Source of the DNA: Limonium bicolor
Lineage: Eukaryota > Streptophyta > Magnoliopsida > Caryophyllales > Plumbaginaceae
Length of the DNA: 64,000 nucleotides
Direction: 5' to 3'
NCBI GenBank assembly: GCA_023374045.1
Contig: CM041779.1
Span: 274,349,258-274,413,257, forward strand
Of this stretch, positions 30,201 to 64,000 are shown piece by piece. The notes beneath the pieces were generated by a model. The model did no database searches and was not told the DNA's origin. It worked only from the letters and a program-made list of their open reading frames with translations. The position numbers and the translations under genes are program-made. Within the stretch, counting starts at the first letter, position 1, and the number at the start of each line of letters is the position of its first letter.

Positions 30201-32287
30201 TGAATTTAAATAAGTGTTTACGTGTTAAAATAACATTTTATAAAGTTTTGGGGCTATTTTGTAATTTATGGAAAGTTTGGAGTAAAATCGAATTACATAT
30301 GATTTTCTGGGTATATTAAAGTATTAATTATGAAATTAGGCTTTGGTCAAAGTGTTGACCAAAAACCTTGGGTTAAAATGATTTATAACATAAAATATTA
30401 AGTTTATAAAATTTTTGGGGAGAATATGTAATTTATAAAAGTTTACATATAAAACCGAATTGGATAAGCGGCGAAATCATAATTTATGGAAATATATGGA
30501 TCATTTCGGTATTTTAGGAAATTAAATATTAAAACTATAGTTTATGAATTAATATGTAACTTATATAAAGTTTTTGGGGTTAAAATGTAAATATAGAAAG
30601 TACATGCTGAAATCCGAGAGTTTATAGGATTAATTAGTAATTTATAAAAGTTAGTATATTCATTTTGTAATTACCGAAAGTTAAGTGGTTATTTAGTAAT
30701 TTGCAAAGTTATGTGTTCAATATATAATTACCGAATTAATAAGGTTAGTTTTGTAATTTAATAAAGAAAGGAATTAATCTAAGTAATATAATGCATTATG
30801 GAATATAATGTAAAGTTTATAAAATAATAGTGGTTATAATAAAAGTGACCAACGTATAGTAATATGTAGAATAAGTGAAAACAATTATGAGCATATAATG
30901 AATGAGAAGGAGAAATACTATAAGGTGGAAATTCATTATCACATGTAGTTGTTACATAAAATAACGAACCGTTAAACTACCTCGAACCACGGTTAAATAA
31001 CAGGGAGAAATAAAGAACATACGGGGTTAGTATACTACGAGTATTAGTTCTGTAATAACAGTACTGTAATAGTTAACGCTAGTTGTATTAATGTTACCCG
31101 GTATTTGCATGTATATATATAACAACATTACGGGGAGAAACTACTAAGCGTGAACTGTCAAGCTAGCAATTTTCACGGTGAACGGTATGTTAATTGTGTG
31201 GTCTAAATGTCCTAAGGATTTTCCTGAGGTCCAGACATTGTGTGTTTAATCGCTAAGAGCAATATCTGTGATTTATGTATATGAACTTGTATACTGTATT
31301 GCTCGACACCATTGCATTCTATTTTACGCGAACGTCTTATGACTGGAAGTTTATACATCTAAACTCAAACAAGACTAGGTGACCTTTAGGTATTACGAGA
31401 ACCTAACTGATGGTCAACTGTTATAGTCTTAACTCAAGGATTGGATATTGTATCATTGACTAAAGGGCTAACTTACAAAGAGAAGAATCCAGCTAGTTTC
31501 GACTATCTGGTTACGCATCGTGATCACTACGAGGGACTACTATCAAGAGTCACTCAAGGGAATTCATTATCCACATTCGATGATGGCAGAGGGCACTACT
31601 GTTGGTGCACAGGTTTCGGCCGAATTGGTCGCCTTTAAGGCAAATAAATTATCCAGGGCCACAGGGTCAGCTGGCAACGGTTCCATTGGAACCCAGGGGA
31701 CTACTATCCATTAATAAGTTATTAAGGGTTGTCCTAACATGACACCTGAGGTGGAAATTAATTGGAAGGTTTAAGTGATTGGTTAAAAAGGATGAGGGCC
31801 AAGAGGCCAACTAACAAGTACAGTTAATTAATACGCGTATCTTGTTTGGTTACTGTTATTGATTATTGGTTATTGGTTGTGTGATAATATTGTTGGGTGA
31901 ACTATTATGTGTTTATTTAACATTTACAATTGTTATTATTATTGTAAACCGGTATAGCATGTGATGAATCTAATATCAAGATGGCTAAACGACTTAAGAG
32001 ATCCAAATGATTTAAGACTACATTTAGCATACCAGCATATCGTTTGCTGAGCCCTTCAATGGGCAAAACATTTCAGGTTACTAAGAAGAGACACGAAGCC
32101 GGAGAGCGGGACGCTGGGTAGTTGATGTATTTTTAATGAAGTACTCTTTTAGTTTTATTGTGTACTGTAATAAGGAGTTCTGTTGTATTGGGTTTAGTTG
32201 CTCAGTTGTTTAGTTTGGATTTGGATTGTAAGTTTAAGATTGCTCGGTATCTCGTCATCACAGCGGTGGAGAGTTGAAGTGAAATGA
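27243..32287 (+). repeat. Element B 5' LTR, main part
   Basis: About 5 kb, very AT-rich from 29600 to 31000, with no supported gene. CCCGGG palindromes occur at 27505 and 27855-27880, but there is no hairpin array like those of the other LTRs. Continues at 46795-46938. Confidence 0.8.
32283..32287. repeat. Target-site duplication AATGA, left copy (element A)
   Basis: AATGA precedes A and recurs at 46790-46794. Confidence 0.9.
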
Positions 32288-35200
32288 TGTAACACCCCAT
32301 CCAAAGCCATTCGTGGTTATCGCAAAACTGAACACTTAATCGAATACGTCGCAGCGGAAATAAATAACACCTGGACCTTGCCACGGTCTGATCGTTAGAA
32401 TATACCGGCCTTAACATTTACAATACTTATCCAAAATACTTATCCAACTCAAAACATCACCATCCACAATACCACAACCAACCGAGTACAAATATCTTAC
32501 ACATGATCGTAACCTTACTTCAGTTTAAATATAAACAGTCGGGTGCACAGGCGCAACCCGAACTCAAAATAAACATCCCACCCTAAGTCTAACCGCTCCT
32601 ACTCTCGTAGTGCGTCCTCATGGGTCTCTTACCTGCAAGTGTAAAAATAGCCCCCGAGGGGGTCAGCACGAATGCTGGTACACCCTCTCATGGCCCCCAA
32701 GCTAACGGGACTACGACGACTAATTGTCGATAGCATGGAAATTGATTACATACACAAGCATATATGAAGTGCAATAACAATAACCACAGATGAACATATA
32801 TAGTTCACAAACGATGAACGACTCAAGCGTTCCCTTATCAAGTGGGTTAGTAACCCCCTCCTTAGTCCTCATTTCCTCAATCTCAGTTCCTTACCTTACC
32901 TTAATCTTAATCTTAATCTTAATCTTAATCTCAGTATACAAACCTTTCCTGGAAGGGATTGGTTGTAGCTTAATTCGAACCTGGGATTTAGGTGATCCCA
33001 CCGCACCATCTTAATGCCACCTACTCTGGACGGGAGTCCAGCGTAGCTGAGCCGGCAACCGGCCCTAGGCTACAAGTCCAACGACAAGTCCTTAAGCGGA
33101 GGGCGGATCTGATTCAGATACCGTCCCCCTTTTTCCTTAGCATGCATGACCGGAGATCGGTCCCGGGTTTTCCTCACTCAAGTTCCAGTTAGTAGAAATC
33201 TTAATCACCATGTGCTAGCTAAGCCTTAACGGGCATTAACCAACAACCACCAAACTTAACTCTTATTCTTAACTCAGTAAGTACTAACTTTGGTTAGTAA
33301 CAATCTCAAGTCTCGCGGTTAGTGTAAAGATAACACAAACACAACGAGAACAAATATAACCGGTTGCATGCTTTATCTTGTTTTAGTCATAGCAATTAAA
33401 CAGATAGCACACAAGCCGAGGGACACCTCGTTAGCAAGTGGGTCACAAGAAAGATTGTACCGTTCACCGTCGACAATCGTTTGGTTTATCTCCTTCCAAG
33501 TCCCAATTCACAAAGCCTAAAACATTGATTCAGTTTTCGGTTACTATTCAATCCAACTCAATAGAATTACTTAACCTTCCTAGACATCAACTTTTACCCA
33601 TTGTTTTTCACTAAGCCTTATGGTTTTTTTTTAACTTGACTCCTAAGTGCATCATTTCCTCATTATTTATTACACTTACTCTCCCACTTAATGACCATTA
33701 CACCCACCAAACATGTCCTTAATAATCTTATAACATCCATACTTAATTATCCCCATCATTTCCTAACCTTAAACAAGGTTTTTGGTCCATACAGTGGCCT
33801 GTCCGAACTTGTGTCCGGACTTCCCAAGTTCGGACACAAGTCGAGACTCAAAACTGAAAACAGACACATGTCGAACATGTGTCCGGACTTTGGAAGTTCA
33901 GACATGGGTCGAGGAAAACTCAAAGTAGAAACAGGTACGTCCGAACTTGTGTCCGGACTTCCCAAGGTCGGACACAAGTCTAGACCCTGAAAATTTTCAC
34001 GCAACAGGGCCTGTCCGAACGTCCATGTCCGGACGGATGTTCGGACAAGGCAAAACACTCATTTTCTAAGCCTTCAAACACTTAACCAATTTTCACCAAA
34101 CTTCTCCTAAACCTTCATAATGTCTTCTAACTTCATTTGGCACATTTACACCCTCATACAACATCCCACAAAACTCATTTTCTATCTCTTTAAACACTTA
34201 CTCACTTCATACCAAAATTCCTACACTTATGATATTTTCTCCTTGGTTTTCTAAGTGGTGTTTCATACCTATGATAGCCACTATGCCAATAATGTTCCCT
34301 CACTACTACAACATCATCTCCCAAGCATCTTTTCTTGCACTTTCCAAGGTTTTCCTTAAATTCTAAACCCTAGTTTCTCCCTAAACCACCTAAAAGTTTT
34401 ATGCTCTTTTACTTCAAACTTACTAAAGTTTTCTAGCTTCTTTTATCAACATTTACCTAAGTCCTAAATACCCAAGTACATACTTTTTGATTCCTAAATC
34501 CTTCATGGTGATACCTAGGTCATTATAAGTCATTAAAACACCTTAATCTCACCCTTTTCATCAAGACAACCTCTAGAACTTCCTAGTACTTCCTTAGTCA
34601 TTAAATTCCCTTGGAACATCTCAAACACTTAAGTTCTCCTTTAAATTTTGCCATGGGTTCTCTAGTATATAATACATCCTAACACTTGGTTTTCCTCCAT
34701 CAAACAACCAATACCACACAAATTCTCATCACAACACCTTAACACACAATTTACACTAAAACTTCACCACATCATCATATAGTGCTTAAACTTAAAATGC
34801 TTGGCACTTAGGCCCTTAAATGACAATAATCTTAACCACTGAATTTCCACATATATTTGCCTTCAACCTGCGAATACACACAACAAGGCTCCCATTGAAA
34901 TAAAATGCTTCTTGTAATTCACCTTGATGTTCTTAAACTACCTCTTTTTCTCATATGCTCCTTAGTCACAAGTTCTCAAGTATAGTCATTGTTTCTCCTA
35001 GGTTATATATAACCCTTTTCTAATGTAAACTCTCTACTAAACTCATCACATATCTAAATCCCATTCCCTTAAACTATAAAACACCTTAAGGTAAGTAATT
35101 TACCTTGTTCTTTTACAAGCTTAAAAAGCATCCTTCCTTAGGTTTTTCTTTGTTCAATCTCGGTCACCAATGTGTATCTCCTTGCCAATGTTCTAACCAA

Positions 35201-36403
35201 TATCCAATGACTCCAATGAGTACTAGATAACACATTAACCCTAAGGAACAAACCCTAGGTTAAAAATATGCTTTAAGGTATTAAGGTGATTGTTTACCTT
35301 GGTTCCTCAAGACAAGCTTGGATATGAAGCAAGAAGGACCTCCTCAATCCTTTGAAGAGTAGAAAACAAGCTAGAACAAGGCATAAACATGGAATCCCAT
35401 GAGTGTAAATTTTCGGACAAGGAAGAAAATGTGGGAACCTAGATTTTCTTACACTTTCTTTACCTTAAGAGAATGGAGAAGCCAATGGAGTCTCCAAACT
35501 TGAATTTCCTCCTCTAATGGTGGTTTGACTTGGCACCAAAATGAAGCTCTTGAAGTTTTGAAAAGATAGAAAGAGAGAGCTTGAGCTAACTAAGAAGAAT
35601 AGTAATTTGTTTTGGTTTTGGAGCTAAAATGAGTGAGTTGTGTGCAAGGGGCTGGATGGAGCTAGCATGGAGTTGCTCTTCACGTTAATGGAGAAGGGAG
35701 AGAGAGCAAGAAATCGTGAGAAACAAAGGAGAATGAAGAAGTGAGGAGAGAGAACTAATAAAGTGTGATATTTATGTAAAGGTGAATAGTGCTTTTGCTT
35801 TACAAAACTTTATTGCCTAATGAGTCATGAAGGTGGTGACTCACCTTATAAGAAACCGGCCCCCATTAGTAACAAGGGGTACTTAAGTCATTGTTGACCA
35901 AATATCTCACTTATATTGACTTATGTTATAAACTAGCTTAAATAATTTACTATTCACAAAACAAGGCACATTGTTGTGAAATTTTTTGATTTCCCATTGA
36001 TATAGACTTCCAAATGTGATACTATATAGTACACATGTTAATTAAAGAGTAATGACGGACATTTAGCCATTCAAAACTCATTTACAAGACAATTTTTCAA
36101 AAACGTGCTTTAAGACTCCTTAAAGCACATTTTGTGTTTTAACTTGTTTTCAAGCTTGGTTTTCTTCGGTTTGGTAATTGATTTAAAATGACCATTAGGA
36201 TATTACTAAGGTCTTAGAACAATATTTGGGTACTCTCCAAGTCTCTCTCAAGCTTAGAGCACGTTTTTGCTTAAACTGCTCTTTTGGTGTTTCCTTATAT
36301 TTTCTTTGATTAGAAATGTTTCTTAATGTTTATAAGGCATTATTTAGCCTCCTTATATCTTAGTTTATCATTTAAACACCATATCTAAGTTTGGGGTATT
36401 TCA
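32288..36403 (-). repeat. Element A 3' LTR
   Basis: 4116 bp, TGTAACACCCCATCC ... GGGGTATTTCA. Nearly identical to 42711-46789. Contains a CTTAAT microsatellite near 32895-32930 and hairpins at 33801-34046. No gene. Confidence 0.93.
33801..34046. repeat. Four GTCCGAAC/GTGTCCGGAC hairpins in element A 3' LTR
   Basis: Spacing about 75 bp. In the first, 33801-33810 pairs perfectly with 33826-33835 (10 bp) around a 15-nt loop starting GTGTCCGGAC. An alternative 10-bp stem, 33808-33817 with 33831-33840, interlocks with it, so a switch or pseudoknot is possible. The last has a 9-bp stem (TGTCCGAAC/GTTCGGACA) enclosing GTCCGGAC. Confidence 0.92.
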
Positions 36404-36420
36404 ATCTACCCCCCTTAAAA
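36404..36420 (-). other. Polypurine tract of element A
   Basis: The minus strand reads TTTTAAGGGGGGTAGAT directly before the 3' LTR. A near copy, TTTTTAAGGGGGGGTAGAG, lies at 36666-36684. Confidence 0.85.
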
Positions 36421-36665
36421 GAACTTTGTCCTCAAAGTTCACTATGTGCTTAATCATTCCCGGTACTCAATTCCCTTAATCTTAACACCACATCTTATAT
36501 TCACATTCACACATCTCAAGACTCAAAGGTCAATATCAAATACAATACATAAGTATTATACATAACTCAAACTTACACACGAAGTGTAGCAACTTACACA
36601 AATTCACATCTTAAAACCAAACAAACGACAAACATGATCGTTTCCTAACTCAAAAGCGAGGAAGC

Positions 36666-36700
36666 TCTACCCCCCCTTAAAAAGGGGTACGCCCGTACCC
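36666..36700 (-). repeat. Second polypurine-tract-like copy and adjacent hairpin
   Basis: A 19-nt near-duplicate of the terminal purine tract, adjoined by GGGTACG-CC-CGTACCC (7-bp stem, about 36685-36700), between the chromodomain stop and the 3' LTR. Confidence 0.6.
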
Positions 36701-36712
36701 TATACAGACGAT

Positions 36713-36880
36713 CTAGTCAGTAAACAAAGAAGGGTACTTCGCCCTCATCTTATCCTCTAACTCCCATGTGGCCTCTTCGACATCCTGGTTAGACCAGAGA
36801 ACCTTCACCAGTCGCACTGACTTGTGGCGAGTGTCCCTAGTCTTACTATCCAAGATTCTCTGAGGAGTCTCCACGGATCT
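36713..36880 (-). pseudogene. Element A integrase C-terminal chromodomain
   Basis: The frame ending at 36713 reads PQRILDSKTRDTRHKSVR, then VKVLWSNQDVEEATWELE and AKYPSLF. The KVLW..(H/N)..EEATWE signature is the chromodomain found at the end of chromovirus integrases, where it is thought to guide insertion to chromatin. The stop codon gives the natural end of pol. The join to the upstream integrase is frame-shifted near 36965. Confidence 0.88.
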
Positions 36881-36969
36881 CATATTCGGTTCTAAAGTCA
36901 ACCTCTCAGGTTCTAACATGAGAGGGTGTGCATGTATTTCTTTAGCTGTGAAACATGAAAACATCATGC

Positions 36970-38060
36970 ACTTTACCCAGCTCTGCAGGTAAATTTAACC
37001 TGTAAGCAACCGGGCCCACCCGCTCCGTAATCTCATAAGGACCAACAAATTTCGGGCTAATTTGCCCTTCCGCCCAAACCTGAATACACTCGTCATCGGT
37101 GAAACTCGCAGAAATACTTGGTCGCCCACTGCGAACTCCAGGTCCCGTCGTCGAACATCAGCATACGACTTCTGCCTATCTTGAGAGCTTTCATGTTCTC
37201 TCCCTGATTTGCTGAACTTCAGCCTTAACTTGTTTCTAAGTACTCTGGTCCTATAATGACCGTCTCACTCGACTCATCCCAGCAGAGCGGTGTACGACAT
37301 GGTCTACCGTACAACGCTTGAAAAGGTGCCATCTTGATCGAAGCGTGATAGCTGTTGTTGTATGAAAACTCGATCAGATGTAGTCTATCAATCCAACTGC
37401 CCTAGAAGTCTAAGGCACATGCTGCTCAGCATGTCCTCGAGTGTCTGAATAGTACGCTCAGTCCTGACCATCTGTCTGAGGATGGAATGCGGTACTCAGC
37501 TTGAGTTCTGTACCCAACGCTTCTCTGGTAGCTCTCCAGTACCTCGAAAGGAATCTGGTATCTCTATCTGACACTATGGTCTTTGGTATGCCGTGATGTC
37601 TCATGATTTCTTTCTCAAATAACTCAGCTAATTTGGTCACCTTCCAAGTATCCTTCATCGGTATGAATCGGGCTACTTTGGTAAGGCGATCCACACCACC
37701 ACCCATATCATGTTGAGACCTCCCCTAGCAGGTGGAAGTCCAACTACGAAGTCCATGGAGATATCATGGAACTTCCACTCCGGAATTGGCATCGACTGTA
37801 CATTCCGCCCGGTCGTCGGTGCTCGAATTTCACCTTCTGGCATGTGAGACACCTCAAGACGAACTCGGTAACATCTGTCTTCATCCCCGACCACCAGAAG
37901 TATCTCTTCATGTCTTTATACATTTTAGAGGCTCCCGATGGATGGAAACTGAAGAACAGTGTGATTCTCTAAGTATACGGTCTTTCAGATCCGTGTTGCC
38001 TCGTGGTATACATAACCGGCCCTTAAGTCTGATCAGATAATCATCATGAAAGTCTGAAAT
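36970..38060 (-). pseudogene. Element A integrase core and GPY region, frame-broken
   Basis: Joins element DNA to the genome. Minus-strand pieces in order: IPEWKFHDISMDFVVGLP near 37780 with the first catalytic Asp; RHHGIPKTIVSDRDTRFLS near 37590 with the second; STAFHPQTDGQ near 37465, where the frame breaks before the catalytic Glu; and [19 protein letters not shown] near 37040, the GPY/F motif of chromoviruses. HHCC-type zinc residues upstream of 37890 are obscured by frame changes. Confidence 0.85.
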
Positions 38061-38199
38061 CGTATTTCTGTCTGACTCTCAAAGGTACCATCTGTCAGCT
38101 TCTGTCTGACCTCTCTCATGTACTCATCTCCCTCTGAGCCTCTCGCGCCTCATCACCAGCTGGAGAAGAAACTAGCGAATGGAGTGAGTGTGCTCGACG

Positions 38200-38645
38200 C
38201 TGCTCAGGGCATCTGCTACAACATTGGCCTTCCCCTCTTTGTATTGGAGTCAATGTCATAGTCTTTCAGAAACTCTAACCATCTCCTCTGTCGAAGATTT
38301 AACTCCTTCTGAGTGAATATGTATTTCAAACTCTTGTGATCGGTGTAGATCGTGACACTAACCCCATATAAGTAGTGGCGCCATATCTCAAAGTAAAGAC
38401 TACAAGCTCCCAGCTCTAAATCATGTGTGGGGTAGTTCTCCTCATGTTTCTTCAACTGGCGTGAGGCATATGCCACCACCTTGCCATGTTGCATGAGCAC
38501 GCAACCCAGCCCTCTGCCGGATGCATCACAATAAACCTCAAAGCCCTCTGTACCGTCTGAATGGTCAGAACCGGTGTAGTGTCAGTGAGTCCTTCAAGCG
38601 CTGAAATGATCTTCTCACAGTCAACGGTCCACAAGACGGTGCATC
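38200..38645 (-). pseudogene. Element A RNase H
   Basis: Removes RNA from the RNA-DNA hybrid during reverse transcription. The open piece at 38216-38500 has [40 protein letters not shown], and [14 protein letters not shown] with the catalytic TDH, then [15 protein letters not shown]. This is the usual order of Ty3/gypsy RNase H. The join to reverse transcriptase is frame-shifted. Confidence 0.88.
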
Positions 38646-38649
38646 CTTC

Positions 38650-39535
38650 TTCATCAACTGGTCATCGGCTTCGCGACCTTGCTGAAATCTCTAACAAACT
38701 CTCCTGTATTAACCTGCCAGAACCGAGAAAGCTTCGGATATCGGTAACCGTCTTCGCCTTGGCCAAGTACGTACGGCATCATCTTTGCTGGATCCACTGC
38801 GATCCCAGCATCCGAGATGACATGACCTAGGAAAAGACCTGGTAAGCCAAAACTCACACTTGGAGAACTTAGCATATAGCTGGTTCCCCCCAATATCTCC
38901 AATACCCTCCTCAGATGTTCCTCATGCTCAACCTTAGACTTCGAATATATCAAAATGTCGTCAATAAAAACCACAACCGACTTGTCCAGCTGCTCCCGGA
39001 ACAAGCGGTTCATATCAGATCCATAAACTTCGCCGGTGCGTTCGACAAAACCGAACGGCATCACAGTAAACTCATAGTGGCCGTATCGTGTCTGAATGCC
39101 GTTTTCCTCAATGTCTCCCCTTAATGGCTATCTGATGATACCACGTCTGAGATCAATCTTGGAAACACAGATGCTCTCCCTTCAACTGATCGAACAGATC
39201 GTCAATGCGGGTAGTGGGGTACTTATTTTTCACTGTCACTGCATTCAGCTCTCTGTAGTCGATGTAGAGGCGGAGACTACCATCCTTCTTCTTCACGAAG
39301 GGCTGGCGCTCCCCATGGTGGAACACTTGTCCTAATGAATCCCTTATCCAACAAATCGTTTTCAATTGTTTTCTTTTAACTCAGTCATTTCTGCCCGGAG
39401 CCATACGGTATGGTGCCCTGGCTATCGTCCGGTACCAGGTAAGAAGCTCGATGTGAACTCTACCTCCCGAGTGGGTGGCATGCCGGGAGTTCCCGTGGAA
39501 TAAGTCGGGGAACTCCGACACTACCGGTAAGTCGG
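38650..39535 (-). pseudogene. Element A reverse transcriptase, frame-broken
   Basis: Copies element RNA into DNA in the particle. Pieces in order on the minus strand: linker LPGMPP/REVEF with PGTG and YRM-AEMTELK near 39385-39535; [20 protein letters not shown] with VTVKNKYP (39153-39365); MPFGF near 39060; VVVFIDDILIYSKSK with the catalytic FIDD at 38957-38968; and GLPGLFLGHVISDAGI. Several single-base shifts separate them, one within the stretch between 39153 and 39064. Confidence 0.88.
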
Positions 39536-39689
39536 GGTCGAACTCAGGGTCTCTCTCTATGTCCTGTACATAGCAAGGTATACTTCTTCCTTTCTCCTTA
39601 ATTCTCTATACATTGCCATGGCGGTGATGATCCTAGTCGAAGGCTCTCTGGGCCTCTGGCGGTATGAATATTGTTACCCCAGACTGACT

Positions 39690-40088
39690 CCTGAGCAAGC
39701 AATCTATGCTCGGCGCAGAGGATACGTCCCTTTGTGCCGCTCCAAACCAGTTCATCCCGAAGCTAACATCAAATCCTAGCTTACTGAACTCTATGAAACT
39801 GACCTGGAAAGTCTTCTCCCTTAATTCTGACAGTGGCTCCTCGGTAGTAACGAGTGCAATGAACCTCTCCTTAGACGGAGCGTAACCGTGAAGTCGGGTA
39901 GCTCATCAGCGTCTAGCCCCAACTTGCTTCGTGAATGATGCCGAGACAAGGTATGCGAGGCCCCTGAGTCGAAAGAACTGATGCCTCAATCCCATTAATC
40001 GGAAAGGTTGCCAGTGAGGATGGTACCGCTAGCGTCGGCCTGTGCCTCTGTAAGTATGCTTAACGCCCTTCCGTACCGAGTCCATAAC
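39690..40088 (-). pseudogene. Element A aspartic protease, frame-broken
   Basis: Retropepsin that would process the polyprotein. The minus strand encodes GRALSILTEAQADASGTIL near 40065, then VLFDSGASHTL with the DSG catalytic triad near 39965 (one base appears missing in the run before GAC), then FDVSFGMNW near 39765, the usual protease end motif. It begins about 155 bp after the dioxygenase stop codon, so it cannot be translated in continuity with it without readthrough, reinitiation or alternative splicing. Confidence 0.82.
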
Positions 40089-40243
40089 CTAATTAATTGT
40101 GTTCACAGCTTATGAGTATTGATGGTATAACAGAGTCGTAACAATTTTATATGAACAACACTATTATTTTATTCATGACCATCCTGTTTACAACGTTGCT
40201 TTAATCTTACATCTCCTTCCTCATCTCATTCTACATTACATGG
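40089..40243 (-). other. Spacer between dioxygenase and protease of element A
   Basis: AT-rich, with stops in all minus-strand frames. It ends in AATTAATTAG at 40089, which could act as a splice acceptor for pol, but I could not match its phase to a visible donor. Confidence 0.45.
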
Positions 40244-40981
40244 CTAATATTGTCTAAAGGTTAGGTTTAATCTTCCTGGTCTCATATGCGTCGCATTGAT
40301 TACTGCTGACGGTGCTGTATTCAGCTTGATTCTCTTAATCCCATGGTATAACATCCTTGATTCTCCTCCCAAAATTAATACATCACCTGACTTAAGTACA
40401 ACTTATCTGCACGGTCCGCACGCTTCTGCTCGCCGTATAAAAACTCTGCATCATCCCCAATGGACCAAGACACTACGGGTATCCCTCTTTCGAGAGACTC
40501 CGTTGTCTCGTCCTTATCCTGGTGTAGTCCCAGTCTCCCATCCTTCTCGTAGAAGTTTACAATGCAAATGTCTGCCTGGATGTCTGGAATCGGTTCAGCT
40601 TCCAACTGCTGAGCGATTTCCACGACTTGTGTAATAACTGGATGGAACTCTTCGGGTATTCCCGGTGGTGAGACTCCATCTTGCTCCCTCATGGTTTGGT
40701 AATTCTTGGCATACGGATTCCAATCCTTGCCCAAGCTCATCATTTTAATTTCATCCGTGCTCCCCCTGGGTACTCCGGTGTGTAAAAACCTCCCGGTCCC
40801 ATTCCTAGTTGATTGCATCTTCTGATGATGGCTATTTGTGCTTCGGGTGTCAGGTATCCCCTTAATAAAATCATACCTGGGCGGATAACCTGACATTGTT
40901 CGGTTGGAAAGTCTATGGTTTCGATGTCGGTGTGCTCCGGGTTAGGTGTAGATGGTATTGGGTAGCAGATGTTGAATCTTC
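40244..40981 (-). CDS. ALKBH1-like Fe(II)/2-oxoglutarate dioxygenase domain within element A (two 1-nt frame breaks)
   Basis: AlkB-family enzymes oxidatively remove alkyl groups from nucleic-acid bases. Minus-strand exon of about 245 codons. It opens FNICYPIP, then VIRPGMILLRGYLTPEAQ, GMGPGGFYTPEYPGGA, MMSLGKDWNPY, IPEEFHPVI, and ICIVNFYEKDGRLGLHQDKD with iron ligands His (40522-40524) and Asp (40516-40518). Then come PVVSWSIGDDAEFLYG, SGDVLILGGESRMLYHG with the distal His at 40343-40345, and RLNLTFR (RxNxTxR, 2-oxoglutarate/substrate motif, 40253-40273) just before TAG. Frame breaks near 40744 and 40390 each fit loss of one A from an A run. It lies between gag and protease, inside the LTRs. 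No intron interrupts the domain, which suggests capture of a spliced host mRNA. Its substrate is unknown. Confidence 0.93.
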
Positions 40982-41112
40982 CTAAAGTGGTAGTAGGTTA
41001 TATCTTACTTAAGTTCTAATCTCATCTTATTCTTACTTAACTCATTTATTCACCAAGCATGCATGATAATGCGGTAAGCAGGTAGTTTTATTACTAAATG
41101 GTTATATGGTAC
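40982..41112 (-). other. Predicted intron 3 of element A (gag to dioxygenase)
   Basis: 131 bp, GTACCA ... CACTTTAG on the minus strand, AT-rich. Splicing joins ...SSRPG (phase 1) to the exon encoding RFNICYPIP in frame. Element B has an intron at the same place and phase, also 131 bp. Confidence 0.8.
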
Positions 41113-41451
41113 CTGGCCTCGATGAGGGTTCAGGCTCATCGTCCCGGTCCACCATGTGTAAAGTGGGTCCCGACTTCTGGGTCCCTTGGGTTCTTGTCCG
41201 CCGGCTGCTGCACCTTCCTCTGACCGTCAGATCCAGCTCCCTGATCGGTCTTGCCCTTGCCCCTGGTATCGGGCCTATAGGCTCTGCTAGCAGGGTTCCG
41301 GTAACACTCATATGCCCGGTGTCCATAAACTCCACAAAAGTTGCACTCCACCTTATTCCCTTTACAATCGAGCCCGGGGTGGTCCTTGTGACACCACCTA
41401 CAATGAAGCGTCGCTGGTAGCCACCACCGGCTCCCTTCTCAGTCTCAGATC

Positions 41452-41530
41452 CTGATGATTCATAATGTCAATTCTCATATCTCAAATGGTTACTAATTTG
41501 TTTCTTAACTCATTAATATCAATTCCTTAC
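41452..41530 (-). other. Predicted intron 2 of element A gag
   Basis: 79 bp, GTAAGGAATT ... AATCATCAG, AT-rich, phase 1. It follows PLRSRAPKG; element B has an intron exactly after its PLRSAPPRG (63354-63429). Confidence 0.85.
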
Positions 41531-41750
41531 CCTTTGGCGCCCTAGAGCGCAGGGGTGTAGCTGCATAAGCATACGTCAACTTCAGTGGCTTTGGGTTCTG
41601 ATTTTTCTGGGCCTGAGGCTGGTACTTTTGTTTCTTGTACCCTCCTTGCCCTTGACTTTCTGAGCTCTTACCAGCACTCTTCCTCTTAGCATTCTCCTCG
41701 TCCCTCAGCTGGACGGTTATCTCAACCTTAGCAGCGGCATGATAGCACTC

Positions 41751-41836
41751 CTGCTTTTCCATAGTATTAGTCACTCTTATTTCTCATAATCTAAATCTTA
41801 CTCATTACTTACTCAAATCTCAATCATTCTTATTAC
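41751..41836 (-). other. Predicted intron 1 of element A gag
   Basis: 86 bp, GTAATAAG ... AAAAGCAG, AT-rich, phase 0, with the branch-point-like sequence GACTAATAC about 20 nt before the acceptor. Removal joins TTLQ to ECYH. Element B reads TTIQECYD without interruption, which fixes both splice sites. Confidence 0.87.
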
Positions 41837-42476
41837 CTGCAAGGTAGTGTAACTCGTCGGCCCCATGCCGTAGCGGAGTCGATGGCTAAGCCCGCCATAG
41901 AAGCGGTCCACCAGGATCTGGTCAGAATATCCAAGACCTGGCAGAAGACGGAGCAAGGCAGTGAACTCTGAGTAATACTCGTCCACTGTCATCTTGTCCG
42001 TCTGCTTAAGCGCATCCAACTGAAGCGCTTCTTCGTCTGGACATGGGCGGGGTAGTACTTTGCTCGTAGCAAGGCGGTGTACTGCTCCCAGCCGAACTCT
42101 GGATTGGCCACATGCTCGGCCCTCACCAGCTTCCACCAATCGCCTGCCGCCCCCTTCAGATAGAAAGCAGCTAGACGCACCTTGATCCCAGCAGGGACAT
42201 CAAGGGTCTCGAAGGCGGTCTCCAGCTCGGAGATGTACGCCTCAAGCTTGGCGGGATCGGTCTCCCCCTTAAAGTGCGCGGGTCGAAGATCTGCAAGACT
42301 CTTCACCCAGTTGGGTTCCCTAGGTTGTGGCGGTGGAGGTGGTGCACCCACACCAGGCTGTAGCCCATATGCCCTAATGCGGCAGCTACGATCTCTGCGA
42401 TCGTCTGCCCTCCAGGTATTCCTGAAGTATCCTCACCCTGGCCGCGACCTCGGCTTCCCCTAGGACGTCCTGCCAT

Positions 42477-42694
42477 CTGAACAAGCATAACTCACATTAG
42501 ATTTGTATTCACCACTGTTTCGGTTAACGAATTTATAACGTCCGTAGACGATAAAGACGATCCACACTTATTAGTGGTCATCTGACTCTACTCACTCTAA
42601 CTTCTCACACCCTTAACCCATCACTTATTCCTTAACTTATATCCTAACTCGGTGGTTACTCATGTCCGGTATTTCTTGATCAGAGCGTAACTAC
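42477..42694 (-). other. Element A leader
   Basis: About 220 bp untranslated sequence between the primer site and gag start. No gene. Confidence 0.6.
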
Positions 42695-42706
42695 GCTCTG
42701 ATACCA
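42695..42706 (-). other. Primer-binding site of element A
   Basis: The minus strand reads TGGTATCAGAGC, complementary to the 3' end of initiator tRNA-Met, 4 nt from the 5' LTR. Confidence 0.95.
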
Positions 42707-42710
42707 CTTT

Positions 42711-45700
42711 TGTAACACCCCATCCAAAGCCATTCGTGGTTATCGCAAAACTGAACACTTAATCGAATACGTCGCAGCGGAAATAAATAACACCTGGACC
42801 TTGCCACGGTCTGATCGTTAGAATATACCGGCCTTAACATTTACAATACTTATCCAAAATACTTATCCAACTCAAAACATCACCATCCACAATACCACAA
42901 CCAACCGAGTACAAATATCTTACACATGATCAACCTTACTTCAGTTTAAATATAAACAGTCGGGTGCACAGGCGCAACCCGAACTCAAAATAAACATCCC
43001 ACCCTAAGTCTAACCGCTCCTACTCTCGTAGTGCGTCCTCATGGGTCTCTTACCTGCAAGTGTAAAAATAGCCCCCGAGGGGGTCAGCACGAATGCTGGT
43101 ACACCCTCTCATGGCCCCCAAGCTAACGGGGCTACGACGACTAATTGTCGATAGCATGGAAATTGATTACATACACAAGCATAATATGAAGTGCAATAAC
43201 AATAACCACAGATGAACATATATAGTTCACAAACAATGAACGACTCAAGCGTTCCCTTATCAAGTGGGTTAGTAACCCCCTCCTTAGTCCTCATTTCCTT
43301 AATCTCAGTTCCTTACCTTACCTTAATCTTAATCTTAATCTTAATCTCAGTATACAAACTTTCCTGGAAGGGATTGGTTGTAGCTTAATTCGAACCTGGG
43401 ATTTAGGTGATCCCACCGCACCATCTTAATGCCACCTACTCTGGACGGGAGTCCAGCGTAGCTGAGCCGGCAACCGGCCCTAGGCTACAAGTCCGAAGAC
43501 AAGTCCTTAAGCGGAGGGCGGATCTGATTCAGATACCGTCCCCCTTTTTCCTTAGCATGCATGACCGGAGATCGGTCCCGGGTTTCCTCACTCAAGTTCC
43601 AGTTAGTAGAATCTTAATCACCATGTGCTAGCTAAGCCTTAACAGGCATTAACCAACAACCACCAAACTTAACTCTTATTCTTAACTCAGTAAGTACTAA
43701 ACTTGGTTAGTAACAATCTCAAGTCTCGCGGGTTAGTGTAAAGATAACACAAACACAACGAGAACAAATATAACCGGTTGCATGCTTTATCTTGTTTTAG
43801 TCATAGCAATTAAACAGATAGCACACAAGCCGAGGGACACCTCGTTAGCAAGCAGGTCACAAGAAGGATTGTACCGTTCACCGTCGACGATCGTTTGGTT
43901 TATCTCCTTCCAAGTCCCAATTCACAAAGCCTAAAACATTGATTCAGTTTTAGGTTATTATTCAATCCAACTCAATAGAATTACTTAACCTTCCTAGACA
44001 TCAACTTTTACCCATTGTTTTTCACTAAGCCTTATGGTTTTTAACTTGACTCCTAAGTGCATCATTTCCTCATTATTATTACACTTACTCTCCCACTTAA
44101 TGACCATTACACCCACCAAACATGTCCTTAATAATCTTATAACATCCATACTTAATTATCCCCATCATTTCCTAACCTTAAACAAGGTTTTTGGTCCATA
44201 CAGTGGCCTGTCCGAACTTGTGTCCGGACTTCCCAAGTTCGGACACAAGTCGAGACTCAAAACTGAAAACAGACGCATGTCCGAACATGTGTCCGGACTT
44301 CGGAAGTTCGGACATGGGTCGAGGAAAACTCAAAGTAGAAACAGGTACGTCCGAACTTGTGTCCGGACTTCCCAAGGTCGGACACAAGTCGAGACTCTGA
44401 AAATTTTCACGCAACAGGGCCTGTCCGAACGTCCATGTCCGGACGGATGTTCGGACAAGGCAAAACACTCATTTTCTAAGCCTTCAAACACTTAACCAAT
44501 TTTCACCAAACTTCTCCTAAACCTCATAATGTCTTCTAACTTCATTTGGCACTTACACCCTCATACAACATCCCACAAAACTCATTTTATCTCTTTAAAC
44601 ACTTACTCACTTCATACCAAAATTCCTACACTTATGATATTTTCTCCTTGGTTTTCTAAGTGGTGTTTCATACCTATGATAGCCACTATGCCAATAATGT
44701 TCCCTCACTACTACAACATCATCCCAAGCATCTTTTCTTGCACTTTCCAAGGTTTTCCTTAAATTCTAAACCTAGTTTCTCCCTAAACCACCTAAAAGTT
44801 TTATGCTCTTTTACTTCAAACTTACTAAAGTTTTCTAGCTTTTTTATCAACATTTACCTAAGTCCTAAATACCCAAGTACATACTTTTTGATTCCTAAAT
44901 CCTTCATGGTGATACCTAGGTCATTATAAGTCATTAAAACACCTTAATCTCACCCTTTTTCATCAAGACAACCTCTAGAACTTCCTAGTACTTCCTTAGT
45001 CATTAAATTCCCTTGGAACATCTCAAACACTTAAGTTCTCCTTTAAATTTTGCCATGGGTTCTCTAGTATAATACATCCTAACACTTGGTTTTCTCCATC
45101 AAACAACCAATACCACAAATTCTCATCACAACACCTTAACACACAATTTACACTAAAACTCACCACATCATCATATAGTGCTTAAACTTAAAATGCTTGG
45201 CACTTAGGCCCTTAAATGACAATAATCTTAACCACTGAATTTCCACATATTTGCCTTCAACCTGCGAATACACACAACAAGGCTCCCATTGAAATAAAAT
45301 GCTTCTTGTAATTCACCTTGATGTTCTTAAACTATCTTTTTCTCATTTGCTCCTTAGTCACAAGTTCACAAGTATAGTCATTGTTTCTCCTAGGTTATAT
45401 ATAACCCTTTTCTAATGTAAACTCTCTACTAAACTCATCACATATCTAAATCCCATTCCCTTAAACAATAAAACACCTTAAGGTAAGTAATTTACCTTGT
45501 TCTTTTACAAGCTTAAAAAGCTTTCTTCCTTAGGTTTTTCTTTGTTCAATCTCGGTCACCAATGTATCTCCTTGCCAATGTTCTAACCAATATCCAATGA
45601 CTCCAATGAGTACTAGATAACACATTAACCCTAAGGAACAAACCCTAGGTTAAAAATATGCTTTAAGGTATTAAGGTGATTGTTTTACCTTGGTTTCTCA

Positions 45701-46789
45701 AGACAAGCTTGGATATGAAGCAAGAAGGACCTCCTCAATCCTTTGAAGAGTAGAAAACAAGCTAGAACAAGGCATAAACATGGAGTCCCATGAGTGTAAA
45801 TTTTCGGACAAGGAAGAAAATGGGGGAAACCTAGATTTTCTTACACTTTCTTTACCTTAAGAGAATGGAGAAGCCAATGGAGTCTCCAAACTTGAATTTC
45901 CTCCTCTAATGGTGGTTTGACTTGGCACCAAAATGAAGCTCTTGAAGTTTTGAAAAGATAGAAAGAGAGAGCTTGAGCTAACTAAGAAGAATATGTAATT
46001 TGTTTTGGTTTTGGAGCTAAAATGAGTGAGTTGTGTGCAAGGCTAGATGGAGCTAGCATGGAGTTGCTCTTCACGTTAATGGAGAAGGGAGAGAGAGCAA
46101 GAAATCGTGAGAAACAAAGGAGAATGAAGAAGTGAGGAGAGAGAACTAATAAAGTGTGATATTATGTAAAAGGTGAATAGTGCTTTTGCTTTACAAAACT
46201 TTATTTGCCTAATGAGTCATGAAGGTGGTGACTCACCTTATAAGAAACCGGCCCCCATTAGTAACAAGGGGTACTTAAGTCATTGTTGACCAAATATCTC
46301 ACTTATATTGACTTATGTTATAAACTAGCTTAAATAATTTACTATTCACAAAACAAGGCACATTGTTGTGAAATTTTTGATTTCCCATTGATATAGACTT
46401 CCAAATGTGATACTATATAGTACACATGTTAATTAAAGAGTAATGATGGACATTTAGCCATTCAAAACTCATTTACAAGACAATTTTTCAAAAACGTGCT
46501 TTAAGACTCCTTAAAGCACATTTTGTGTTTTAACTTGTTTTCAAGCTTGGTTTTCTTTGGTAATTGATTTAAAATGACCATTAGGATATTACTAAGGTCT
46601 TAGAACAATATTTGGGTACTCTCCCAAGTCTCTCCAAGCTTAGAGCACGTTTTTGCTTAAACTGCTCTTTTGGTGTTTCCTTATATTTTCTTTGATTAGA
46701 AATGTTTCTTAATGTTTATAAGGCATTATTTAGCCTCCTTATATCTTAGTTTAACATTTAAACACCATATCTAAGTTTGGGGTATTTCA
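42711..46789 (-). repeat. Element A 5' LTR
   Basis: 4079 bp, same termini as 32288-36403. Differences are mainly 1- to 4-nt indels in runs. Hairpins at 44210-44457. No gene. Confidence 0.93.
44210..44457. repeat. Hairpin cluster in element A 5' LTR
   Basis: Four GTCCGAAC/GTTCGGAC inverted repeats at the same spacing as 33801-34046. The second has intact arms here (GTCCGAACATGTGTCCGGAC) where the 3' LTR copy lost a base. Confidence 0.92.
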
Positions 46790-46794
46790 AATGA
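46790..46794. repeat. Target-site duplication AATGA, right copy (element A)
   Basis: Matches 32283-32287. Confidence 0.9.
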
Positions 46795-46943: not shown

Positions 46944-46955
46944 TGGTATCAGAGC
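46944..46955 (+). other. Primer-binding site of element B
   Basis: TGGTATCAGAGC after spacer AAAAG. This fixes B as a plus-strand element. Confidence 0.93.
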
Positions 46956-47162: not shown

Positions 47163-47871
47163 ATGTCGAGAAGCGGTAGACCACTTGGAGGCAGCAGTGG
47201 GCGAGGTGGCGAGACACCGACAGACTTCCCAGAGATACCAGGCTTGGCAGAGGCCATGGCAGCCTTCGCCGCACAGCAAGGGACTCAATTTGCTGGAGCC
47301 ATACCCCACCCGCCGCAGTCCAGGGAAACAAACTGGCTGAAGAGCGTGGCAGACGCTAGAGTACCAACTTATTCGGGGGAACCAGACCCTGCCTTGCTCG
47401 AGAAATTTATTGTGGAGCACCAGAAGGCATTCAAGGCTGTTCGAGTTCCGGAAGACCAGAAGGTTGACATTGCAGCCTACAACTTGAAGGATGCAGTAGA
47501 CATATGGTGGCGGTCAGTTGAAGACCACCATAGAGCCACACCAAACTTTAACTGGACAGCATTCGTGGAGGTGTTGCGGGACAAGTACTACCCCGAGCAC
47601 CTGAAGTAGAGAAAGAGATAGGAGTTCGAGACCCTGATCCAGGGGAGCCAGACAGTTGATGAGTATTATGCCAAGTTTATCAGTCTACTGGACTACATAC
47701 CAGGGGTCGACTACTCCGACACAGTAAAAATCCAGAAGTTTAGAAGAGGATTGCAGTATCGCATCCAGGGTTTCATGGGAGCCATACGTTTCACCACTAT
47801 ACAAGAATGCTATGACGCCGCGTCGACAACAGAGCTGATGCTGCAGAATAGGGAGGAGACCCAAGGAAAGA
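47163..47871 (+). pseudogene. Element B gag, 5' part, two nonsense codons
   Basis: Capsid part of a Tekay-type gag. It starts MSRSGRPLGGSSGRGGETP about 207 bp after the primer site. It continues with SRETNWLKSVADARVPTYSG, NLKDAVDIWWRSVEDHH, FVEVLRDKYYPEHLK, then stops TAG at 47607-47609 and 47619-47621, each where Gln is expected. It is then open through FETLIQGSQTVDEYYAKF, GLQYRIQGFMG and RFTTIQECYDAAS to the C2 insertion after QGK at 47871. Unlike element A, no intron interrupts TTIQ-ECY. The reading frame resumes at 63162. Confidence 0.88.
47867..47871. repeat. Target-site duplication AAAGA, left copy (C2)
   Basis: AAAGA before the C2 LTR, repeated at 63161-63165. Confidence 0.85.
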
Positions 47872-49936
47872 TGTAACACCCCTACCGCTAATACCGTCAT
47901 CACTATACAACTACTTACCTTCGCAGTGGATATTACATACACAGCGGCGGGTGTACAATGTCGTTAGTTACCCACGTGACTAACAAGGCCAGCTACACTA
48001 CTACATACTATCGGTCTGATGGCTTGAATATACCGAGTACTTTACACAATACATTACTTTCCATCTCATACTCATATCATAATTCAAATACAACTCCAAT
48101 ACATTACTATACCGAGTCTACTACAATCCTTAAATTACCGATACAGTTTGGACTTCCAGATTCGCATTACAATACAAATACAATTCCTATTACCCAACTA
48201 CCCATGCTTACATAGCAGCCCCGTCCTACACTCTCGAACGGTGGTCAGCTCCGAATACCTGTAAAATAAAAACGGTGCCCCTAGGGGCTCAGCAAAATTG
48301 CTGCATATGAAATTCACATTCCCCGCGTGCTAACGGGGGTATGCCGACTACTTTGGGTGGAATATACATGGAGTTCGTTTTACATGCATACATACATACT
48401 AATTCTACTACAATACAAGCATCATTACTTACATACATATACAAGATTCAATACTTACTAGGGAAGACAATTTGTCAGTCAACCGTTCATGTTAGTTATT
48501 CGTTCATCTAGTTTAATTGGATGCTCTCTTTCTCCCCGTTCGGGTTCTTACGTCTTACACAACTCATGTTCTTACTTTCTTGTTATTGTACTCATACTTC
48601 ACTTGTTACCTTACTCATTACCTTACTCGTGCTTTACTCAATACTCATTACTTACCAACACTTACTCTTTACTCAATGTCCATTACTTAACTTACATACT
48701 CAGTACTCCATACTCATCACCTTACTCGTACTTACTCTTTACTCGGTACTCCTTACATACTCATACTTACTCCTTACTCAATACTCAGTACTTTACTCAT
48801 ACATACGCATTACTCAATACTCATTACTTTTGGCCTCCGGGCAGAGTCATACACAAGACTCACCACCGGGCCTACAAATACAACGGGCTATACACTTAGC
48901 TCCTTCAATACTCAAATGTCCATTTTTACCAGACTACTCAAATTCCCAACACTCTTCTCTCGGAGTATCTTACAGTCTCATGGATTAGCCTAGAAGTATC
49001 TCTCTCGATAACTTCCACTAGCTTAGGGAATTACCATCGTCTAGTATTCTCAGATTTAAGGGTTTGCCCAACGTATCGAATACTCTCATGTTCGGGACAT
49101 TACTTACATTAGTCGGGTCCTCTCATTGTGGGTCGACTACTTTTCTAAGGGGTTTGGAAATCCCTCATCATTCTTTACTACTCTCATGGTTCATGTCTTG
49201 CACCAACATCAATACCTCTAAGAGAGGTTACTTATATACTTCCACTACTTATTGTTTGTGGGTCATTCATTTCGGTTCTCTTACCGTTATCGGGAGGTTA
49301 CTACTCCCGCACACTCTCTCACATTCTAGTGAGTTCATTGGTTGTGTTATTGTTTCTTGGTTCATTAGTCTTAGTGCGTTTCTACACTTCCGTTAATTCA
49401 CAACATGACTCTTACTACGAGTCACTAAACAACAAGACTCATCTAGGAGTCGGTCTACACACTAAGTTAAGCCACAATCATTCAGGAAGGGTTAGCTCAT
49501 ACAACATACAACAAGACATACAATGAAAGACAATAAACCGTTTCCATGATTTAATCTTGATTAGCCGGCATACAGCACACAAATCAACGTAGCTCGGTTA
49601 GCATACAGGGCATTAGAAAATCATACCTTTCACTGGGGTTAGCTTTACCGCGTGTTCCCTTGTTCCTTGGTTCACACTTGTTCCACTAATAATGTTTCAA
49701 CATTGTTATTAATACTATGTTCATACGGTACATTAATATTACTCCCGTACTTACCCCGTTGTCCATTGTACATAGTTTTACTTATGTCAAATTATGTTCT
49801 TACTTCTCACTCATTTCCCACACTTGTTTACACTTCTTAGGACCTTTACATACCACCAAACAACTCCTAAACATTCTCTAAAACCAATACCATTCAATCC
49901 CCCATCATTAGAAGCCTTACAACAATTTTTTTATTC

Positions 49937-50046
49937 TCTCTGGTCTGGACCGCCCCTCTGGGGAGGTCCTGGGGCGGTCCTCAACGACTACACTTATCCT
50001 GCAGAATTCGACTGGACCTCCACAGGGGCGGTCCACAACAGACCCC
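49937..50046. repeat. Hairpin cluster in the C2 LTR
   Basis: CTGGACCGCCCC with GGGGCGGTCC, and a second half near 50020 (ACCTCCACAGGGGCGGTCC). It stands where C1 has its TCCGG cluster, with different arm sequences. Confidence 0.75.
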
Positions 50047-51914
50047 ATTTTCAAAGTGCTTTTCTACTCATGTTAAACTCCAAATTCACCCCAATCTTCT
50101 CCCACTCATTCCACAATCTTTCCACATGTTTCCTACATGTTTAAACATCCTAAAACACTCCTTAATCATGCTCTAAATCTCCTCAAATCATTACTCAAAT
50201 TCTTTACTCAAATCCTTGCTCAATTTCTACAAACTTCAATACTCATTTTTGCACTTATGCACTCTAGTGCATTTTCTAAACTTCTCTTGACAACCTACAT
50301 CTTGTTCTCACCCATTTTGACCATTCCAATTTATTCCTAGATAAATACACTACCTATACCCAAGTCCATCCTTTCCTTTCCAAGGTTATGCACACTAACT
50401 TCTTCCTAGAATTTCTACACACTAAAATACTGTTTTGCTACAGATTTTTACACACTTCATTCTAGTTCTCCAAACACCATTCCAAGGTTAATCAACCCAA
50501 ATCCATCCTATAAACACCTAGTTAAGCCTAGGTCATTCTTTACTCAATATACACTTAAAACACCTTCGATTTCTACCGAAATTTTGCCATAACTCTGTTG
50601 CTTTTCTAGCATTGTCCAAAACTCATCTCATCACCAAATTTCATTCAAATTCATTCTAATCTAGCCACACACACAAGGGGTCCTACCAGCACACAGTACT
50701 CATTCAAATCTCATCAAATTCTCCAAATACATCATAATACACGATTCATACACTACTTGGCTCTTAGGCCCTCAATTCAAAGCAACAATGCCTAAGTTCC
50801 TCATCTAACTACTCAAGGTACAATTTCCACCCAGTTTTGGTTCATTTACTTAAATTTCCCATCCCATAATTCCAATACAATCAAGATAGTTATTAAGGTA
50901 GTTTGTTTACCTTTAAATTCTCAAATGCTCTTTTCCACTTCCCTTCTCCTCTTCTCAATTCCGGTCAATTAGGAAAGGTCAATGCCAATGCTCCAGCCTA
51001 ACATCCAAGGAATACCAAATGAGTATCATTAAAATTCTAAACCCTTGGAATCATTCTAATTAGATGAAAGGCTTAAAACATAAAAATCTAGGGTTTTACC
51101 TTTGGATTTCCAAGAGTGGTTTTAACCCTTGATTCAAGAAGATGATTCCACCACCATTGGAAGGTTGGAATAATGCTCAAAAGAGAGAGAAAAAAAGGGC
51201 ATTAAAATCGGCCACAAAGAGAAGGAAAGGAATGAGTTCTTTTCTTTGAAATTTTTTTACCTTAATGGAAAGAGGAGACTCCAAGCTTCAAGATGGTGTA
51301 GTTTACTCTTCAAATGCCCAAAACCTATGGAGGTCAAACTTATCCGTTTGAAATTTTGAAAAGATAGAAGTTTAGAGCTTGATGAGGGGAAGAAGAATAT
51401 ACAATTTATTTTCGATTTGGGGCTCAAATGAAGCTTGGGCAAGCTTGGAAAGTTGGAGAAGCCATGGAAGCTTTGGAGGAGCTTCAAAATCATCTATGCA
51501 GAAGAGAGGAGGGGAGTTTACGGTGGAAAGAGAAGGGAAGTTCAGGTTGGAAGAAAAAGAAATGAAGAGAAAGAGAAAGGTAAGGTGCTTTATGTACTTT
51601 TTACTTTTACTAACACACACATAAGTGGGGGGGGGGGGGGGCTATATAATTCGCAACCCACACACACACAATGAGTTTCATGATTTTTATTTACAAAGGG
51701 GGAAGGTTATTTTAGCTTTATTACACTTAATACCCCACAAGTTCTAGTTTTTACACTATTAGCTCACTGGAACCCGTTTTCCAGAATTTTCTCGTTTAAT
51801 TAATTTCAATGGTTCTTAAGCTTCCATTAATGTTTAATTATAGTTATTTAGTCAACCATAATTTTTACGGGTTCATTTGACCACTCAAAGTCACATTTTC
51901 GGGTTTTCTCGAAA

Positions 51915-51919
51915 AACGT
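51915..51919. repeat. Target-site duplication AACGT, left copy (Athila-2)
   Basis: Matches 62868-62872. Confidence 0.88.
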
Positions 51920-56330: not shown

Positions 56331-56334
56331 GGAA

Positions 56335-56830: not shown

Positions 56831-56834
56831 GCAT

Positions 56835-63160: not shown

Positions 63161-63165
63161 AAAGA
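63161..63165. repeat. Target-site duplication AAAGA, right copy (C2)
   Basis: Matches 47867-47871. Confidence 0.85.
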
Positions 63166-63353
63166 AAAGAAATAATTCTGAAGGAGAGGAAGGGGGAGCG
63201 AATTCTGGCGGTTATAACAAAGGGGAAACAGGAAATTCTTCGACAGGAAGAAAGGGCGGAAGGACTACCAAGGTCAGAAGGCGAAGGAGCAGGTCCCTCG
63301 TCTGACCGGCCCAGCTATCAATGCTCAGCCACTTAGATCTGCACCACCCAGGG

Positions 63354-63429
63354 GTAAGGATACCCACCTCTTACTTAACCAAATATTTACTAGTTGTACC
63401 CTTACTAAACCATGTTGTATAAACAATAG
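63354..63429 (+). other. Predicted intron in element B gag (equivalent to intron 2 of A)
   Basis: 76 bp, GTAAGGATAC ... AAACAATAG, AT-rich, phase 1, with the branch-point-like sequence TTACTAAAC about 30 nt before the acceptor. Follows PLRSAPPRG as in A. Confidence 0.85.
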
Positions 63430-63795
63430 GTACTAATCCACCCCAGCGCCATTACTACTGTATACGCTATGGGAACGATCACCCAGGCGTAGACTGCGCA
63501 GGCAAGAAGGTTGAATGCCGTTATTGCAAGAAAGAAGGTCACAGGGAGTACGAGTGCTTTTCCAACCCCGGAAGTTGGGTGTACAAGGGATCTAGAGATA
63601 CTTCAAGAACCCCAGCTATAGAGGCAAGCGGATCACGAGGAGGCCAGGCGTCTCAGAACAACATCTACACTAGAGGTCCGGCGGGACAGCCATCTGCAAC
63701 TGCACAGCAGAAAGGAAAGGAGATCGTACCAGGCAGAAACACCCTGTACTCAGTGGGAGCTTCAGGCGCTGAGACTAGCACTCAACACGACACCG

Positions 63796-63926
63796 GTAAG
63801 CCTAGAACTTAAACCAAAAGCATGAAGCATGAATGTGTGTTACAGTTATCAGTCGATGAGACTTGTATGTGTTTAGTGCGAATCAAATTTAGAGAGACCT
63901 AACTTAGGAAACCTCTCACCTAATAG
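63796..63926 (+). other. Predicted intron at the end of element B gag (equivalent to intron 3 of A)
   Basis: 131 bp, GTAAGCCTAG ... CACCTAATAG, phase 1. Joins HDTG to an exon encoding HFDICYP. Confidence 0.75.
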
Positions 63927-64000
63927 GACACTTTGACATCTGTTACCCCTTACATATGAGACCGAGATCACCTAAACCTTTGAGCGAAGGTCAGGAATAT
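63927..64000 (+). CDS. Start of an ALKBH-like exon in element B (cut by window edge)
   Basis: After the acceptor at 63926, the in-frame exon reads HFDICYPLHMRPRSP and remains open to the edge. In element A the equivalent exon begins RFNICYPIPSTP and leads into the dioxygenase. The F-[ND]-I-C-Y-P match at the same place and phase suggests that B carries the same cargo. The catalytic part would lie beyond the window, so this rests on a short match and its position. Confidence 0.55.

Follow-up and report, generated by a model that had tools for sequence, protein, structure and literature searches.

In a 64,000-nucleotide stretch of Limonium bicolor DNA (assembly GCA_023374045.1, contig CM041779.1, positions 274,349,258 to 274,413,257 of the forward strand; hereafter the window), a long terminal repeat (LTR) retrotransposon, E1, carries a probable spliced exon with an AlkB domain between its gag and protease regions. 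AlkB-type enzymes remove methyl groups from DNA or RNA. A second element of the window, E2, is only distantly related to E1, yet shares the start of the AlkB exon at the same place. A preliminary description of this DNA had read it as a retrotransposon with an ALKBH1-like dioxygenase, and our results support that reading. Taken as a whole, the explanation that we favour, and hold to be reasonably probable, is that the exon is inherited by these elements, that splicing doses a gag-AlkB fusion beside gag-pol, and that RNA or cDNA of the element itself is the target of this fusion.

The AlkB exon of E1 matches the Pfam profile PF13532 (2OG-FeII_Oxy_2) in two reading frames, that of its middle piece (75.1 bits, E 1.1e-20) and that of its C-terminal piece (52.7 bits, E 8.4e-14), both above the curated cut-off of 31.2 bits, which bears out the domain proposed in the preliminary description. 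When all 2029 stop-to-stop translations of the window were scanned with a hidden Markov model (HMM) of 17 relatives, three pieces were found at E < 1 (8e-63, 7.8e-29 and 4.1e-22), all of them within 40247-40997. The motifs HxD, distal His and RxNxTxR do stand in the order described earlier, with LHQDKD in the middle piece followed by MLYHG and RPGRLNLTFR in the last one, but not in a single open frame: they are spread over two reading frames, and the domain contains two frame changes between matching pieces that have no internal stop. In the database relatives P0045, P0047, P0048 and P0052 these motifs share one frame, and in several relatives the frame is open over the whole domain.

The surrounding element is an LTR retrotransposon in which LTRs, target-site duplication, primer binding site, gag, reverse transcriptase (RT), RNase H and integrase are all present (Table 1). 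Its boundaries, two LTRs and a perfect AATGA duplication, are as previously described, and so is the position of the exon, with gag upstream and predicted intron 2 and the protease-RT region downstream. A purine tract precedes the 3′ LTR, and the internal region measures 6.3 kb. Gag (in one of two frames, the 26.1-bit one lying above the PF03732 cut-off of 24.1 bits and the 21.5-bit one below it), RT, RNase H, the integrase zinc-binding domain and SH3_Tf2-1 all score above their Pfam cut-offs; the protease-RT part is disrupted by stops and frame changes. The chromodomain-like segment after the integrase scores 20.3 bits, below the PF00385 cut-off of 25.1, and its residues, read by eye, lack the first cage aromatic. 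We treat the Tekay label as putative; the chromodomain text looks like that of Tekay elements.

The LTRs of E1 are 97.9% identical over the BLAST match, and the pair shows 44 substitutions and 31 gap events over 4072 aligned sites (Kimura two-parameter distance 0.011). Assuming substitution rates of 1.3e-8 and 7e-9 per site per year, this divergence dates the insertion to about 0.4-0.8 million years ago. The share of length changes among these differences is high and could stem from assembly errors. From the gap events, some 2.8 length changes are expected per 738 nt of a single copy since insertion, and it is therefore quite possible that the AlkB exon was still open at the time of insertion. 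Its frame changes could also be errors of the assembly.

E2 adjoins E1 on the plus strand, and the first 74 nt of its AlkB exon (GHFDICYPLHMRPRSPKPLSEGQEY) run out of the window. Aligned with the N-terminal 64 residues of P0047, the piece encoded there scores 86, next to 87 for the E1 AlkB piece and 35 for the next of the 2029 window pieces; none of 10,000 shuffles reached 86. Its best partner is P0047 (86), followed by P0079 (58). The CCHC zinc knuckles of the two elements are 59% identical over 37 residues. As E2 has the AlkB exon too, the exon is older than the split between E1 and E2.

Gag and AlkB are separated in both elements by exactly 131 nt, running from GT to AG in phase 1, with a GC content of 0.313 in E1 and 0.374 in E2 against 0.43-0.53 in the adjacent gag and AlkB stretches. 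We predict an intron here in each element, and a second one downstream of the AlkB exon in E1 (163 nt, GC 0.344); all three contain stops in every frame. We dropped an intron-free reading of the 131-nt stretch, because stops interrupt each of its three frames in E1 as well as in E2. The flanking phases match: gag leaves one base at the donor, and the AlkB acceptor in E1 and E2, as well as the protease acceptor in E1, continue in frame. Throughout the internal region of E1, the starts of 131-nt windows whose GC content does not exceed 0.345 are confined to 41130-41069, 40292-40173 and 36671-36544, that is, around the two predicted introns and at the 3′ end past the chromodomain. Read by eye, the similarity of P0047 and P0079 to E1 and E2 begins at the residue right after the predicted acceptor.

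A protein search among candidates of 0.55-1.75 × 641 aa returned 44 proteins, 42-48% identical, the named ones from plants. PF13532 is the only domain in 43 of them (P0016 also has PF21770), and no gag-AlkB or AlkB-pol protein was found among these 44 matches. Shorter proteins gave 57 matches, with P0045, P0046, P0047, P0048, P0052 and P0069 at 54-67% identity. We refer to these as the transposable-element (TE) type, to which P0079 was added by its position beside P0048 in a first tree and by its sequence. A third search, with the alignment of these proteins as query, scored a capped set of 7991 candidates, and no further TE-type protein was recognised among the best 120 of 5031 matches. A 120-residue piece of E1 is 64-67% identical to P0045, P0046 and P0047 and 57% to P0048; against 184 proteins outside the TE type its best identity is 53.8% and the median 46.8%. 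The E1 core is closest to P0045 (67%), a protein without the N-terminal part, so that this match is not strictly comparable with that between E2 and P0047. Searching viral contigs with P0047 gave no relative, and searching them with alignment A2 gave three distant AlkB loci (33-37%).

In a tree rooted with nine bacterial proteins, drawn from 70 prokaryote AlkB loci, the E1 piece and six database proteins group together (96/94), with 35 host-type rows as their sister group (96/86). The TE-type clade thus lies outside, not within, the host gene clade of the plant ALKBH1C/D (OsALKBH1) group, to which the nearest solved structure and the nearest named proteins of the E1 domain belong. All 27 named host-type rows are from angiosperms, including water lily, orchids, coconut, a grass and eudicots. 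This tree kept 35 of 55 host-labelled rows and dropped others, P0079, P0094 and P0095 among them; P0102, which has a repeated domain, is in neither tree. In the first tree (62 rows) the TE-type label needs three changes and forms one side in no bootstrap tree, because the host-labelled P0079 stands beside P0048 and the distant P0094 and P0095 fall on the TE side of a long branch. On these sequences, the rooted topology places the split between TE type and host genes before the crown of the sampled angiosperms, barring a source in gymnosperms or other unsampled plants, or a long-branch artefact. Among the 70 prokaryote loci, six acidobacterial AlkB proteins (L004-L009), 41-47% identical to the TE-type enzyme, gave the best E-values.

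The TE type has the same fold and the same catalytic residues as plant ALKBH1C/D (OsALKBH1, PDB 5xeg/5xoi), P0047 being 52% identical to the structure. It differs in lacking the long N-terminal part of the host proteins, its exon beginning with the FDIC block, and in the combination SIGDD[AP]EF and KR[MA]D, present in 6/6 TE-type rows; a search with the motif matches 6 of 11 host rows, all with SAEF. Variation among the seven TE-type rows avoids what hosts conserve: 19 of 73 host-conserved columns vary, compared with 94 of the remaining 123 (Fisher p 5e-12), and the E1 piece itself retains 36/41 host-conserved columns and 25/78 variable ones. This comparison of proteins shows constraint on the TE-type clade, not strictly on the elements.

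Could the exon be a mere passenger, a host ALKBH1D fragment taken up by one element and decaying there without a role? The capture of genes by plant LTR elements is established, and the two frame changes of the E1 copy would fit. A one-off capture lost weight because E2 has the exon as well, with the same start, at the same place and beside an intron of the same length and phase; further sequences of the TE type, several of them open across the whole domain, and the constraint on host-conserved columns also speak against a passenger, which we consider very improbable. We think it unlikely, too, that the TE-type database proteins simply represent the normal ALKBH1D genes of some plants absent from the tree, such as gymnosperms, and that the window elements acquired theirs later from such a gene. 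No gymnosperm or fern was recognised among the named matches or in the tree, and P0045-P0048, P0052, P0069 and P0079 are known without genomic context, which leaves room for such genes. Against them stand the age of the exon, older than the E1-E2 split, the early ends of P0046, P0069 and P0079 inside the domain, as in decayed copies (contig ends could also truncate them), and the similarity of P0047 and P0079, which starts at the predicted acceptor of the elements after unrelated residues.

A different question is whether the exon, if inherited, is expressed as a gag fusion at all. It has its own stop codon and an internal Met where the catalytic core begins (PGMILL), and in the case described in PMC9289625, a Phalaenopsis element, the enzyme is encoded by a separate open reading frame (ORF), ORF2; separate expression from its own start or promoter would follow that model. 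The full exon of E1 is not opened by a Met, however, and in E1 and E2 alike homology begins at an AG acceptor whose phase fits that of gag, so that we regard separate expression as rather unlikely.

Several observations weigh against the explanation by an inherited, spliced exon. The E1 copy, with its two frame changes, is damaged now. Host genes may account for part of the signal in the constraint test, given that the six database proteins come without genomic context. When neutral drift of one pair was simulated to 66% identity, 159 of 5000 runs kept HxD and had no stop, and a stop-free frame with HxD is therefore a weak test when taken alone. For the 31-residue piece of E2 the general AlkB HMM gave no match at E 1, its support being the pairwise test, and the second intron and protease of E2 fall beyond the end of the window. 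The introns of both elements are predicted by eye and composition rather than from transcripts: a GC content as low as that of intron 1 occurs in 145 of 6176 overlapping E1 windows (some overlapping the introns themselves), the donor of E1 intron 1 (GTACCA) is weak, and the E1 gag shifts frame before this donor, its phase relying on the frame nearest to it.

Table 1. Features of E1 and E2, in positions of the window; slashes mark predicted splice junctions.
Feature	Position	Strand	Basis or detail
E1, LTR retrotransposon with AlkB exon	32288..46789	-	LTR pair
E1 5′ LTR	42711..46789	-	
E1 3′ LTR	32288..36403	-	
Target-site duplication AATGA, one side of E1	32283..32287		read from sequence
Target-site duplication AATGA, other side of E1	46790..46794		read from sequence
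E1 primer binding site, after 5′ LTR	42695..42706	-	TGGTATCAGAGC; presumably initiator-Met type
E1 gag (Retrotrans_gag in two frames)	41885..42177	-	PF03732, 26.1 + 21.5 bits
E1 gag CCHC zinc knuckle	41274..41384	-	
E1 predicted intron 1	40982..41112	-	CAG/GTACC ... TTTAG/GA
E1 AlkB exon, 738 nt, own stop TAG	40244..40981	-	PF13532, HMM, frame reading
E1 predicted intron 2	40048..40210	-	GAT/GTAAGA ... TTACAG/AG
E1 protease region to RT	38882..40047	-	RVT_1, 30.8 bits
E1 RNase H	38258..38551	-	PF17917, E 3e-31
E1 integrase zinc-binding domain	37828..37938	-	PF17921, E 3.2e-11
E1 SH3_Tf2-1 domain	36957..37067	-	PF24626, E 1.5e-12
E1 chromodomain-like segment	36737..36865	-	PF00385
E2 primer binding site, past 5′ LTR end	46944..46955	+	
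E2 gag, first part	47163..47871	+	
E2 gag, second part, beyond nested insert with duplication AAAGA	63161..63795	+	
E2 CCHC	63447-63602	+	
E2 predicted intron 1	63796..63926	+	ACCG/GTAAGC ... AATAG/GA
E2 AlkB exon, start	63927..64000	+	

E1 is apparently nested inside the 5′ LTR of E2, which would therefore be the older insertion. The gag of E2 is itself split at 47872 by an insert (47872-63160) with the AAAGA duplication on both sides, which looks like a solo LTR. Nested in it on the minus strand is an LTR element (51912-62870) with long open frames and LTRs about 94% identical, which we take to be Athila-like. The insert and another LTR-like stretch (482-5000) are 67-73% identical in three matched pieces, and both begin with TGTAACACCCC and end with GGGGTATTTCA, as the LTRs of E1 do; they are probably solo LTRs of related elements. 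Directly before the zinc knuckle of E2 lies a 76-nt stretch, GTAAGG...AATAG (63354-63429, plus strand; GC 0.39 over 63340-63426), which looks like a further intron or a small insert; a counterpart was not seen in E1.

Under the explanation that we favour, E1 and E2 would be members of one plant Ty3/Gypsy, chromovirus-like lineage with an inherited cargo, an Fe(II)/2-oxoglutarate dioxygenase of AlkB type from the plant ALKBH1C/D (OsALKBH1) group. A single exon, placed after gag and before protease and closed by a stop codon of its own, would encode it, and in E1 a short intron would lie on each side of that exon. Skipping the exon would join gag in frame to protease-pol, whereas its use would yield a gag-AlkB fusion terminating at the AlkB stop, and the ratio of polymerase to demethylase would be set by the splice choice. 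We infer that the gag part could carry the demethylase into the particle, where N6-, N1- or N3-methyl groups would be removed from the element's RNA or single-stranded cDNA, the benefit being escape from a host mark or alkylation repair. The ALKBH1 type has been linked in rice to N6-methyladenine (6mA) on single-stranded or unpaired DNA, which makes DNA, and not only RNA, a candidate substrate. More tentatively, and as a possibility that we would not put higher than that, an old chromovirus lineage whose AlkB line split off before the crown angiosperms may have kept an alternatively spliced ALKBH1-type exon, its packed gag-demethylase clearing methyl marks from RNA or nascent single-stranded cDNA.

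Plant RNA viruses offer a parallel to E1 as mobile genetic elements with an AlkB demethylase of their own. Their AlkB domain sits inside the replicase. Such domains occur in Alpha- and Betaflexiviridae and Closteroviridae according to PMC9289625, which also provides the closest parallel, a plant Ty3/Gypsy element with an AlkB-family dioxygenase retained through rounds of copying. As described there, this element (Gypsy_Pa_2799, Tat/Ogre, 25.5 kb) has gag-pol in one ORF and a separate ORF2 of 565 aa with an ALKBH5/9B/10B-type domain, and AlkB is confined to two Phalaenopsis species among 121 angiosperm genomes. E1 falls outside this family: in place of a separate ALKBH5-like ORF2 it has an exon of ALKBH1C/D (OsALKBH1) type, which lies between gag and protease and is bordered by predicted introns, and it has a 6.3-kb internal region and an SH3 and chromodomain-like end. 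Splicing between gag and pol, as predicted for E1, is reported in PMC12786077 for the short gag of EVADE and BARE1 and for the Ogre intron; its product there is a short gag or a gag joined to pol, whereas in E1 the alternative exon would encode an enzyme. The same paper describes Arabidopsis ONSEN RNA as restrained by N6-methyladenosine (m6A) and released by ALKBH9B. PMC11963269 and PMC12786077 cite PMC9289625, and the passages concerned name no further case. None of the titles and abstract openings covered by our literature search concerned an AlkB exon in a chromovirus, most subscription papers and preprints lying outside that search.

This search turned up a single lineage of plant LTR elements bearing an AlkB enzyme, that of Phalaenopsis, and E1 and E2 would be the second, from a different lineage and with a different AlkB subfamily. 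If the more tentative reading is true, these elements encode a splice-dosed epigenetic eraser of their own. With such a second case, plant retroelements would have captured demethylases more than once, and repeated capture would be evidence that hosts control retroelements through nucleic-acid methylation.
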